Assembly (NCBI RefSeq): GCF_005048265.1
Contig: NZ_SUNH01000007.1
Coordinates: 62,001-126,000 of the forward strand
Length of the DNA stretch: 64,000 bases
Reading direction: 5' to 3'
From: Paracoccus hibiscisoli
GTDB lineage: Bacteria > Pseudomonadota > Alphaproteobacteria > Rhodobacterales > Rhodobacteraceae
Part shown: positions 17,841-20,617 of the stretch, one piece after another
Position numbering within the stretch: the first letter of the stretch is position 1
How the letters are laid out: each line of letters starts with the position of its first letter
The notes under the pieces: generated by a model
Databases searched by the model: none
Told to the model about the DNA's origin: nothing
What the model saw: the letters and a program-made list of their open reading frames with translations, nothing else
Program-made: the position numbers and the translations under genes

Positions 17841-19394
17841 TCAGCGTCTGCGGACCAGCGAGCCCAGAACGCCCCGGACCAGCGCCTGCCCGGTCCGGGT
17901 GCCCAACTGCCGCGCCAGGCTTTTGCCAAAGGTCTGCGCGATGCTGTCGGACCGCGCAGGCCCCGGCTTTGACACTGGTTTAGCCGCCGGTGGCCAGGGT
18001 TTGCCACGGCTCCCGCCCGGCATCTGGAACAGATCGGCATCGCTGCCGCCGCCCGCCTGTTCGGTGCGACGGGCCAGCATCTCATGCGCGGAATCGCGAT
18101 CCAGCGCGGTGTCATAGCGCGCGGCCATCCCCGATGCCGCCATGACCGCCGCGCGCTGGTCGTCGGTGATCGGCCCGACATGGCTGAAGGGCGGCCGAAT
18201 CAGCGTGCGCTGCGCGATGCCCGGAACCCCCTTGGGCTGCAGGAACGAGGTCACCGCCTCTCCGGTGCCGACCTGCTGGATGGCCTCGGCAATGTCGAAA
18301 TCGGGATTGGCGCGGTAATTCTGCGCCGCATCGCGCAGGGCCTTCTGATCCTTGGCGGTAAAGGCGCGCAGGGCGTGCTGCACGCGGTTGCCCAGCTGCC
18401 CCAGCACCGCATCGGGAATATCGGCCGGGTTCTGCGTCACGAACCAGATGCTGACCCCCTTGGAGCGAATCAGCCGCGCGACCTGTTCGACCTTGTCGAC
18501 CAGCGCCTTGGGCGCCCCGTCGAACAGCAGATGCGCCTCGTCAAAGAAGAATGCCAGATGCGGGCGGTCGGGGTCGCCCACCTCGGGCAGCTGCTCGAAC
18601 AGCTCGGACAGCAGCCACAGCAGGAACGTCGCGTAAAGGCGCGGCGCGGTCATCAGGCGCGCGGCCGAGAGGATGTTGATCATGCCCCGGCCATCCGCGT
18701 CACGGCGCATCAGGTCCGACAGCGCCAGCGCGGGCTCTCCGAACAGACGGTCGCCGCCCTCGGTCTCCAGCACCAGCAACGCGCGCTGGATCGCGCCGAC
18801 GCTGGCCGGGGCGACATTGCCGAATTCCTGCGACAGGGCAGCGGCGTTCTGACCCATCCAGACCAGCATCGCGCGCAGATCCTTGAGGTCCAGCAGCGGC
18901 AGCCCCTGCTGGTCGGCGACGCGAAAGGCAATGGTCATCACCCCCTCCTGCACATCCGTCAGGCCCAGCAGGCGCGACAGCAGCAGCGGCCCCATCTCGG
19001 CCGGGGTGGTGCGCACCGGATGGCCCTGCTGGCCCCAGATATCCCAGAAAGTCACCGGAAAGGCGCGATAGGTCAGATCCAGCCCGATCTGATCGGCGCG
19101 GGCCTGAAAGGCGTCGTGCATCTTGCCCTGATCCGATCCGGGCTGAGAGATCCCGCCCAGATCGCCCTTGGCATCGGCCAGAAAGACCGGAACGCCAGCC
19201 TCGGACAGGCTCTCGGCCAGGGTCTGGAGGGTGACGGTCTTGCCGGTGCCGGTGGCGCCCGCGATCAGACCGTGACGGTTTGCCAGCCGCAGCAGCAGCG
19301 TCTCGGGCGTGGCATGCCCTGCCCCTGCGCCGCCGACCGTCACCGTGCCCGCATCCGCGTCCAGAATCGCTCGCGTCATCATGTCCCTCGCCAT
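17841..19394 (-). CDS. HerA-like / DUF853 P-loop ATPase
   Basis: 517 aa. The Walker A motif is GATGTGKT near residue 40 and Walker B is LAFFFDEAH near 265. A sensor-like FVTQNPADIP and an R-finger region follow, as in the DUF853/YjgR branch of HerA/FtsK-like ATPases. The biological role of YjgR-like proteins is not established. ATG 19394 has an AGGG 8 nt before it; ATGs at 19382 and 19379 are alternatives. The Gly/Ala/Pro-rich segment near 455-480 looks like a linker. Its stop lies 3 nt from the convergent DUF6477-like stop. Confidence 0.85.
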   Translation of the reverse strand: MARDMMTRAILDADAGTVTVGGAGAGHATPETLLLRLANRHGLIAGATGTGKTVTLQTLAESLSEAGVPVFLADAKGDLGGISQPGSDQGKMHDAFQARADQIGLDLTYRAFPVTFWDIWGQQGHPVRTTPAEMGPLLLSRLLGLTDVQEGVMTIAFRVADQQGLPLLDLKDLRAMLVWMGQNAAALSQEFGNVAPASVGAIQRALLVLETEGGDRLFGEPALALSDLMRRDADGRGMINILSAARLMTAPRLYATFLLWLLSELFEQLPEVGDPDRPHLAFFFDEAHLLFDGAPKALVDKVEQVARLIRSKGVSIWFVTQNPADIPDAVLGQLGNRVQHALRAFTAKDQKALRDAAQNYRANPDFDIAEAIQQVGTGEAVTSFLQPKGVPGIAQRTLIRPPFSHVGPITDDQRAAVMAASGMAARYDTALDRDSAHEMLARRTEQAGGGSDADLFQMPGGSRGKPWPPAAKPVSKPGPARSDSIAQTFGKSLARQLGTRTGQALVRGVLGSLVRRR

Positions 19395-19439
19395 TGCCTG
19401 CGCCCTGCGGCGCAACGTTCGCCCTGAAAACGCTATCTT

Positions 19440-19537
19440 AACGATTGTGTGGCAATGTTCACCTGTCCGGTTCACCTCCCGTGACCCGGACCTTCCTCCC
19501 TGTTGGACTGCCGCGCCCCCGGGCGCGGCTTTTTTTG
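19440..19537 (+). ncRNA. candidate small RNA with CUCCC loop and rho-independent terminator
   Basis: No protein gene is upstream, yet a perfect 9-bp terminator stem (19510-19518 with 19521-19529) followed by seven T's ends here on the plus strand. Just before it a 9-position hairpin (19467-19475 with 19481-19489, one mismatch) exposes CTCCC in its loop. A second CTTCCTCCC is unpaired at 19491-19499. Exposed CCUCC runs complement Shine-Dalgarno sites and are typical of trans-acting anti-SD sRNAs such as the CcsR family of Rhodobacter. Promoter and 5' end are not fixed. Confidence 0.5.
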
Positions 19538-19888
19538 TGATGAGGGCAGCAACCAAGGACAGTTGACGGATCACGGTCGCGCGACTAGCGTGCCCAGCAA
19601 TGATGACCGGCCAGTCCGGCAGGGAGACTACGCAACGCGTCGGGGGCCGTGGTTCACACCACGGCCCTTCGCGTATGGGACAGACGCCCGATGCGCCGTC
19701 CCGGTTCCCCGCGACGTGACCGATTGCGCGGAACCCTGCCCAAGGCGCGGCGGCGCGCTGCCGGTGGGCATGCCGCGCGGGCGCGGATCAAGCCAAGGTG
19801 ACAGCGCCGCCAGCGTCGGGGGGACTGACAAGCGCCGGGCCGCATGCTAGATCAGCCGCAATGCGTTGAGCAAAAGGAAGAAACATCC
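19538..19888 (+). other. 350-bp gap before the IalB-like gene with a promoter-like site and stem-loop
   Basis: TTGACG (19563-19568) and TAGCGT (19586-19591) are spaced 17 bp, a good sigma-70-type promoter reading toward the IalB-like gene. About 50 nt later a 9-bp perfect stem (19644-19652 with 19659-19667) has loop TTCACA, but no T-run follows. The rest shows no gene. It may be a long structured leader or a second short RNA. Confidence 0.4.
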
Positions 19889-20617
19889 ATGTCCATCAAA
19901 TCCTCGCACGCGCTGATCGCGGCCCTGGCCCTGCTTGCTGGCCCGGCCTTTGCGCAGGATGCCCCCGCCCAGCCCGAAACCCAGACCGAGGCCCAAACCG
20001 AGGCTGAAACGGACGCCGCGACGCAGGCCCCCGCGGCGGAGGCCACCGAATCCACCGCCCCCGACGCGGCAACCGCCGATGCCGATGCCCCTGCGGCACC
20101 TGCAGCGCGCGACCCCGAGGGACCGGGCACCTATTACGCTAAGACCGAGCATGGCGACTGGACCATCCGCTGCATCCGCGCCGGTCAGGGCAAGGACCCC
20201 TGCGAGATGTACAAGCTGCTGACCGATGAGGATGACAACGCCGTCGCCGAACTGACGCTGGTGCCGCTGGAGAACGGCGATGTCGCCGCCGGTGCCACCC
20301 TGGTCGCGCCCCTTGAGACCGACCTGATCGAGGGCCTGGGCTTTCGCGTCGACCAGGCGGATTTCCGCGGCTATCCGTTCAGCTTCTGCGCGCCGGTGGG
20401 CTGCGTGTCGCGTCTGGGCTTTACCCCGGACGAGCTGGCCGGCATGAAGCGGGGCCGCACCGCCACCATCCAGCTGCTGCCCTTTGGCGGCGATCCGGCC
20501 TCTCCGGTGCAGCTGCCGATCTCGCTGACCGGGTTCACGGCCGCCTTTGACGAGCTGACCGCCTATGCCGCAGAACCCGCGCCCGAGGCCGAAGAAGACG
20601 CCGCTCCGGCAGAGTGA
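19889..20617 (+). CDS. IalB-like (invasion-associated locus B) exported protein
   Basis: 242 aa. A cleavable signal peptide ends near residue 22 (ALLAGPAFA). A low-complexity Ala/Glu/Thr/Pro linker (24-90) follows, then the IalB domain from about 95: GDWTIRC, DPCEMY, and the paired Cys in SFCAPVGCVSRLGF. IalB proteins are periplasmic or envelope proteins of alphaproteobacteria with unclear molecular action. An acidic tail rich in Ala/Glu ends the protein. AAAGGAAG lies before ATG 19889, chosen since the signal peptide starts there. Confidence 0.8.
   Translation: MSIKSSHALIAALALLAGPAFAQDAPAQPETQTEAQTEAETDAATQAPAAEATESTAPDAATADADAPAAPAARDPEGPGTYYAKTEHGDWTIRCIRAGQGKDPCEMYKLLTDEDDNAVAELTLVPLENGDVAAGATLVAPLETDLIEGLGFRVDQADFRGYPFSFCAPVGCVSRLGFTPDELAGMKRGRTATIQLLPFGGDPASPVQLPISLTGFTAAFDELTAYAAEPAPEAEEDAAPAE

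Follow-up and report, generated by a model that had tools for sequence, protein, structure and literature searches.

The spacer between herA and ialB in the window (the whole 64,000-nt stretch of Paracoccus hibiscisoli DNA that was analyzed) contains two conserved elements on the plus strand, RNA1 and RNA2, each with secondary structure and promoter- and terminator-like signals, and RNA2 is complementary to a seed that RNA1 has in common with the small RNAs (sRNAs) SorX and SorY. Judged from the sequence, RNA1 (19464-19536) is probably a small regulatory RNA whose gene ends in a terminator of its own; it carries an unpaired, anti-Shine-Dalgarno-like motif of the CCUCC type, as the preliminary description of the region had proposed, and is kept in relatives. 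By its 3´ module RNA1 appears to be a third paralog of SorX and SorY, one that falls below both Rfam cut-offs. The interpretation that we favor, and hold to be reasonably likely, is that RNA1 would act in trans as a SorX/SorY-like sRNA, with the adjacent RNA2 as its sponge or anti-sRNA. The features of the locus are the following.

17841-19382, minus strand: gene for a HerA_C (DUF853) helicase, divergent neighbor of RNA1 (Pfam PF05872, E 6e-214)
19450-19458, plus strand: likely extended -10 element of RNA1, TGGCAATGT (TGn plus CAATGT), a conserved block in orthologs
19464-19536, plus strand: RNA1, SorX/SorY-like small RNA of ~73 nt (fold z, sub-cut-off Rfam matches, conserved locus)
19465-19491, plus strand: RNA1 5´ hairpin (double-sided changes, fold z per ortholog)
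19492-19509, plus strand: RNA1 seed CUUCCUCCCUGUUGGACU, conserved and mostly unpaired, of which the CCUCCCUGUUGGA part is common to SorX and SorY
19510-19536, plus strand: RNA1 intrinsic terminator, 8-bp stem and 7 T
19563-19568 (-35) and 19586-19591 (-10), plus strand: promoter-like sequence of RNA2, sigma-70 type, TTGACG-N17-TAGCGT
19599 to ~19675, plus strand: RNA2, candidate sponge/anti-sRNA, conserved in Paracoccus and many other Rhodobacteraceae (ends approximate)
19609-19626, plus strand: RNA2 anti-seed core GGCCAGTCCGGCAGGGAG, reverse complement of the RNA1 seed
19644-19667, plus strand: RNA2 3´ hairpin of 9 bp, with a weak T tract here (sequence and fold)
19889-20617, plus strand: gene for an IalB-family protein, downstream neighbor (Pfam PF06776, E 2.5e-33)

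Beyond ialB, an ORF on the minus strand from 20679 onward looks like a beta-ketoacyl-ACP synthase gene, which we take to be fabF-like, and a similar reading frame also lies 3´ of ialB in Rhodobacter sphaeroides. The names LysR, PurL, catalase and fabF-like, as used here, are our assumptions, drawn from the sequences.

Folding of the 98 nt first noted (19440-19537) gave -37.7 kcal/mol (z -3.5), and the 73 nt from the likely start at 19464 gave -36.0 kcal/mol (z -5.7), with none of 200 shuffles equal in either case. The rho-independent terminator and its seven T's were found as first described; the 9-bp stem was not, as 19510-19529 reads GCCGCGCC-CCCG-GGCGCGGC, with 8 pairs and a 4-nt loop (a ninth pair leaves a 2-nt loop), followed by TTTTTTT. 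A pattern scan of the 4 kb around RNA1 detected three terminator-like sites where 1.8 were expected, so the terminator pattern by itself is unremarkable. No plus-strand gene was found upstream of RNA1, as had been stated, the neighbor being the HerA_C helicase gene on the minus strand. The hairpin with CUCCC in its loop (CCUCCC in the window's genome) is present at 19465-19491, and the motif reported as unpaired just before the terminator, CUUCCUCCC, does remain mostly free of pairing: the mean unpaired probability is 0.70 across 19492-19509, where a weak 3-bp UCC/GGA helix is predicted. Directly 5´ of the hairpin, a TGnCAnnnT block is kept in most of 30 aligned orthologs; this block is likely the extended -10 of RNA1, which would overlap the -35 of the minus-strand herA promoter. 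Within 19430-19470, herA promoter-like elements (reverse complement, TATTGT and nTGnCA) overlap the RNA1 extended -10, and in relatives they are spaced 17 nt apart.

The herA-RNA-ialB locus recurs in Paracoccus and in other Rhodobacteraceae. A similarity search with RNA1 matched 57 of 101 genomes including the window's own, 56 of the 57 belonging to the same genus, with the SorY copy accounting for the weaker matches; in the best 30 loci, fetched with 1.5-kb flanks, herA was divergent in 27, ialB was present in 27 and both were present in 26. Scanning the title-bearing genomes for the pattern TTCCTCCCTGTTGRACT gave at least 120 loci, and among those listed 74 were at herA/ialB (66 with herA, eight with ialB only), 20 behind ompR (the SorX place), two behind lysR at the SorY position and 24 elsewhere, 14 of these last lacking a T run. 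Since this 17-letter string fixes the seed, the invariance of the seed in that set is by selection; the best 30 Paracoccus loci from the similarity search and a HerA-based set were not selected by seed, with the counted copies still defined by seed patterns. The herA-locus records among the matches listed include Marivita, Thioclava, Shimia, Donghicola, Yoonia and Amaricoccus. A search with the N-terminal 200 residues of HerA was positive in 166 of 198 family genomes (E up to 1e-40), and an RNA1-like seed plus terminator was called in 75 of the 90 herA loci viewed (the 30 best plus 60 chosen among 150 listed places). Three of these 75 had an odd or misplaced seed (L216, L229 and L272, a regular RNA1 being visible in the latter two). 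None of the published P. denitrificans sRNA coordinates in the available part of PMC5107571 fit the matches of the genus search, which neither supports nor refutes expression in that species, and the names SorX and SorY are absent from the R. pomeroyi sRNA list in the available main text of PMC4809877.

The RNA1 hairpin is kept while its sequence changes. When each of the 30 Paracoccus orthologs was folded separately, the hairpin before CUUCC had a mean z of -2.7; for 69 distinct herA/ialB copies, drawn from the TTCCTCCCTGTTGRACT set and partly from the same genomes as the 30, the mean was -2.4, compared with -0.03 for stretches farther upstream. All four outer hairpin pairs, which were set by hand, show double-sided changes, with 82.5% of cells paired. 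For hairpin and terminator together 94.2% of cells were paired versus 32-46% with the partner slid; because the sequences counted are related, the shuffle control cannot be read as a probability. The terminator has one double-sided change (C-G to U-A) in two of the 30 orthologs. RNAalifold on a MAFFT alignment found the terminator only; it missed the 5´ hairpin because the hairpin is too variable for sequence alignment, hence the use of single folds. The stem covariation in other Paracoccus genomes that the preliminary description had named as a check is thus present in the outer pairs, and hairpin and terminator are both conserved. Occurrence of the same RNA at the same locus in relatives, together with compensatory stem changes, is more than would be expected by chance.

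SorX and SorY bind Hfq, are induced by singlet oxygen and are controlled by RpoHI/RpoHII. At a loose threshold they were the best Rfam matches of RNA1 (SorX, RF02784, 33.2 bits against a gathering score of 46.6; SorY, RF02651, 28.2 bits against 111), with the model alignments covering CCUCCCUGUUGGACU and the terminator. RNA1 is like SorX in having the 3´ module CCUCCCUGUUGGA followed by a GC-rich terminator, in its size (~73 versus 75 nt) and in the hairpin upstream of the seed. Like SorY, it has CCUCCCUGUUGGACU, a hairpin at the extreme 5´ end and the arrangement of a stand-alone gene. RNA1 differs from both in location. According to the available part of PMC6238624, on which the gene name OmpR also rests, R. 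sphaeroides SorX is a cleavage product of the 3´ UTR of the ompR-like RSP_0847 and SorY has its own promoter; RNA1, in contrast, is outside any ompR 3´ UTR, divergent to the HerA_C helicase gene and preceded by its own promoter-like element. The same part of that paper gives 5´ ends of 2,598,224 for SorX and 1,632,642 for SorY, and the SorX model matched genome G150 at 2598225-2598299 and 1632636-1632725; because these coordinates agree, we took G150 to be R. sphaeroides 2.4.1.

Whereas RNA1 adjoins herA, SorY lies between LysR-like and PurL-like genes, a place that in the window's genome (G000) is occupied by another copy (G000:C34:144051-144112; locus L072) with the same LysR-RNA-PurL synteny as in R. 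sphaeroides. With the SorY ortholog on contig C34, RNA1 is a third locus and not SorY. Exact CCTCCCTGTTGGAC occurs in this genome at RNA1 and the C34 copy only. Against the SorY model the C34 copy reached 62.1 bits; its 48.1 bits against the SorX model exceed the SorX cut-off of 46.6, so this cut-off does not separate the paralogs. The Rfam cut-offs would misname the C34 copy, for which SorX was passed and SorY failed (62.1 versus 111). Searching the window's own genome with the SorX model at E up to 1 gave 13 matches, and 10 of 14 control genomes also had matches at this setting; weaker own-genome matches on C16 and C36 were set aside as they were without the CCUCCCUGUUGGA module. The ompR 3´ region of the window's genome (L092, G000:C36) has a degenerate SorX-like module only (CCCTCCCTCTCTGATG and a hairpin), and farther downstream of this place a transposase-like sequence was seen by eye.

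RNA2 was found by lining up the herA-ialB spacers, which revealed a further conserved block downstream of RNA1, with RNA2 itself 63 nt beyond RNA1. In the window this block opens with TTGACG-17-TAGCGT, continues with AATGATGACCGGCCAGTCCGGCAGGGAG and, past a variable segment, ends in a GC-rich hairpin. The preliminary description had missed this element at 19599-19675; its small RNA, motif and terminator held up, while its likeness to CcsR and its emphasis on the hairpin loop did not. The block is present in 30 of 30 Paracoccus loci (with four core mismatches in L026), as is TTGAC at -35. Its GGCCAGTCCGRCRGGGAG is the reverse complement of CTCCCTGTYGGACTGGCC, which in many family members comprises the seed and the start of the terminator arm. 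Across 174 RNA1 loci (from overlapping sets, with the window entered twice, as L001 and L215), the core was found with at most two mismatches in 164 (none in 82, one in 55, two in 27), or in 146 of 156 distinct letter pairs. In the same stretches, the reversed core was never better than four mismatches and a shuffled core was so once only (three).

RNA2, which may be a discrete transcript, has promoter- and terminator-like signals in most loci. A score of at least nine out of 12 for the promoter-like site was reached in 170 of 171 loci, compared with 116 of 855 shuffles and 10 of 171 stretches that were reversed, and the spacer is 17 nt in 163 loci. A terminator-like hairpin with a T run follows at no more than 72 nt in 143 of 171 loci, versus 6 of 171 in the control. 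A short hairpin, GUCGG-CCAGU-CCGAC, has double-sided changes in four of its five pairs, with 91.4% of cells paired in 49 sequences (57 rows minus nine with shifted register, plus R. sphaeroides) and 81.1% in all 57 rows; 18 of the 49, mainly from Paracoccus, have lost the outermost pair. Folded alone, the window RNA2 was moderately more stable than its shuffles (z -2.6, with four of 200 equal). Nothing convincing was found for RNA2 in Rfam.

Genome-wide, counting matches at any place, the RNA2 core occurred at zero or one mismatch in 112 of 125 Paracoccus genomes (the reversed pattern in two) and in 13 of 289 genomes of the class, three of the 13 being Rhodobacteraceae (the family accounts for four of the 289). 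Outside Rhodobacteraceae, 10 of 285 genomes had the core at this level (one exact, G562) compared with 22 for the reversed control, so there is no sign of RNA2 beyond the family. Of the 15 herA loci without a called RNA1, 10 carried the core at zero or one mismatch (L226 and L230, which are doubtful, the latter being the opposite strand of RNA1 itself, and L231, with two mismatches, were left uncounted). The core is without mismatch and no RNA1 is recognized upstream in L248, L252, L257, L270 and L302; at some loci scored as lacking RNA1 (for example, L223 and L256), RNA1 had only diverged beyond the search pattern.

In R. sphaeroides the core is found once without mismatch (G150:C4:1426575-1426592, minus strand); matches with up to three mismatches are background in both G000 and G150, where the exact match alone is informative. 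There, a catalase-like gene is followed by an RNA1 variant, CTTCCTCCCTGAACTGGACTGGCC, and its terminator, then by RNA2 with the same TTGACG-17-TAGCGT and finally by an IalB-like gene. The seed of this RNA1 is changed, with two blocks of pairing to RNA2 kept and the RNA2 core unchanged. At this locus (L305, G150:C4 at about 1426500), the diverged RNA1 is directly downstream of the catalase-like gene and not of herA, and it could be a catalase 3´-UTR RNA.

We then compared predicted RNA1-RNA2 duplexes with those formed by shuffled RNA2. The mean energy was -37.9 kcal/mol versus -21.5 kcal/mol, and in 135 of 151 distinct pairs the shuffles, 100 per pair, never matched the true duplex; as RNA2 was chosen at each locus by closeness to the core, the duplex energy is not an independent measure. 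Co-folding of the window pair gave -91.1 kcal/mol, compared with -36.0 and -37.1 kcal/mol apart, a gain of 18 kcal/mol. The co-fold keeps the RNA1 hairpin and terminator and the RNA2 3´ hairpin, opens the short 5´ hairpin of RNA2 and adds a 14-bp intermolecular duplex with two G-U pairs. The predicted pairing extends to the paralogs and is somewhat stronger there than with RNA1: RNA2 pairs at -38.9 kcal/mol with SorY and at -35.2 kcal/mol with RNA1 in the window's genome, and at -40.4, -39.6 and -36.0 kcal/mol with SorX, SorY and the local RNA1, respectively, in R. sphaeroides. Changes in the two RNAs are also correlated, as GACT-T in RNA1 goes with A-AGTC in RNA2 (12 of 22 versus 10 of 135, p 7e-7; 157 of 171 loci readable, phylogeny ignored). 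Cognate pairs had a small advantage over permuted pairs, again with phylogeny ignored (-34.8 versus -34.5 kcal/mol; p 0.0017 for 135 distinct pairs, p 0.0038 for 54), and an A-C mismatch to RNA2 persists in many species whose seed reads GAACU or CAGACU. RNA2 thus has one property expected of a sponge, in that it is conserved as the complement of an sRNA seed.

On the reading that we favor, RNA1 would be a trans-acting third paralog of the Hfq-bound stress RNAs SorX and SorY, transcribed from its own promoter-like element, and its unpaired CUUCCUCCCUGUUGGACU would pair with Shine-Dalgarno regions of the GGGAGG type in target mRNAs. RNA1 would repress these targets as SorX represses potA; SorX is Hfq-dependent and inhibits potA translation in the available part of PMC9438474, and a malate transporter mRNA is named as the target of SorY in that of PMC8307010. 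RNA2, which has its own conserved promoter-like sequence and carries the reverse complement of the seed, would sequester RNA1 and, because the seed is common to all three, SorX and SorY as well, titrating these RNAs rather than being regulated by them. As to whether RNA2 is a conserved dedicated sponge for RNA1, SorX and SorY in Rhodobacteraceae, encoded beside one member and with a housekeeping-type promoter, we judge the chances to be about even. Such an RNA would set a threshold above which the stress-induced SorX and SorY act, which would explain why RNA2 is kept in R. sphaeroides and in genomes with a changed or unrecognized RNA1.

The main rival to RNA2 as a sponge retains RNA1 as a SorX/SorY-like sRNA and takes RNA2 to be the 5´ leader of ialB, with an attenuator, such that RNA1 would alter read-through into ialB or the stability of ialB mRNA. 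RNA2 does lie between RNA1 and ialB, its usual downstream neighbor, in the same direction, and the poor T tract after the RNA2 hairpin in the window might allow read-through into ialB. We nevertheless regard a leader as unlikely given that RNA2 comes with a promoter-like site and, in most loci (143 of 171), also with a terminator-like hairpin of its own, that ialB has a promoter-like site of its own at 19825-19853 (CTGACA at 19825, 17 nt, TAGATC at 19848; read by eye), and that RNA2 is kept where RNA1 is unrecognized or, as in R. sphaeroides, has a changed seed. The presence of RNA2 in genomes without a recognized RNA1 would also suit a second, independent regulatory RNA that has its own mRNA targets and whose match to the seed of a SorX/SorY-like RNA1 is incidental or minor in the cell, an explanation to which we give little credence in view of the core being complementary within two mismatches in 164 of 174 loci and of the correlated RNA1-RNA2 changes. 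The core also contains AGGGAG, which resembles a Shine-Dalgarno sequence and is inside the stretch covered by RNA1, as would be expected if the two formed a toxin-antitoxin-like pair in which RNA1 blocks the ribosome site of a small peptide encoded by RNA2. This is very improbable: an ATG was found 3-13 nt past the core in just 27 of 171 loci compared with 15 of 171 in a control interval, and the reading frame differs between the window and L003 (by eye). A protein-coding RNA2 was rejected as the start codon is not conserved.

For RNA1 itself, the preliminary description had proposed kinship with CcsR. Cuckoo-type RNAs are defined by CCUCC presented in hairpin loops, and RNA1 has the CCUCC motif in common with CcsR1-4 (RF02791), with CCUCCC in the 5´ hairpin loop in the window's own genome. 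The CcsR1 model, however, gave no match at RNA1 at E up to 10, among 13 Rfam matches of which SorX and SorY were the best, and CCUCC is in the loop in just two of the 30 Paracoccus orthologs. The conserved part is instead the unpaired CUUCCUCCCUGUUGGACU by the terminator. A separate CcsR-like array was detected on contig C15 at about 105600 (L087), next to a ccaF1-like gene (DUF1127); the CcsR1 model matched it five times, at 26-48 bits, always below the cut-off of 65.3. This array also has three ar14 matches, all under the Rfam cut-off. A CcsR/cuckoo identity for RNA1 was rejected on the covariance model, and an RNA of this type acting through CCUCC-presenting loops is scarcely credible here.

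The RNA1 seed and RNA2 strings appeared in no paper of the literature searched, and none was named among the publications listed for sponges together with SorX, SorY or Rhodobacter, with an earlier mention under another name being possible. In gammaproteobacteria, SroC and QrrX are RNA sponges of sRNAs. RNA2 is like these in carrying a long conserved complement of an sRNA seed; unlike them, it seems to be a gene of its own, next to one of the members of an sRNA family, and is predicted to be able to pair with all three. Another instance of RNA-RNA regulation in the same bacterial family, compared here by description, is StsR of R. sphaeroides, which acts on the sRNA UpsM and on the rpoE mRNA according to the available part of PMC8307010, a part that contains no statement on binding of SorX or SorY by StsR. 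As stress sRNAs of R. sphaeroides, SorX and SorY have already been studied, and our data indicate that a third paralog is widespread in the family and is adjoined, in R. sphaeroides too, by an 18-nt complement of the common seed. If RNA2 is a common sponge, existing data on regulation by SorX and SorY would need to be reread, and RNA2 would be a clear case of a sponge evolving beside its sRNA.
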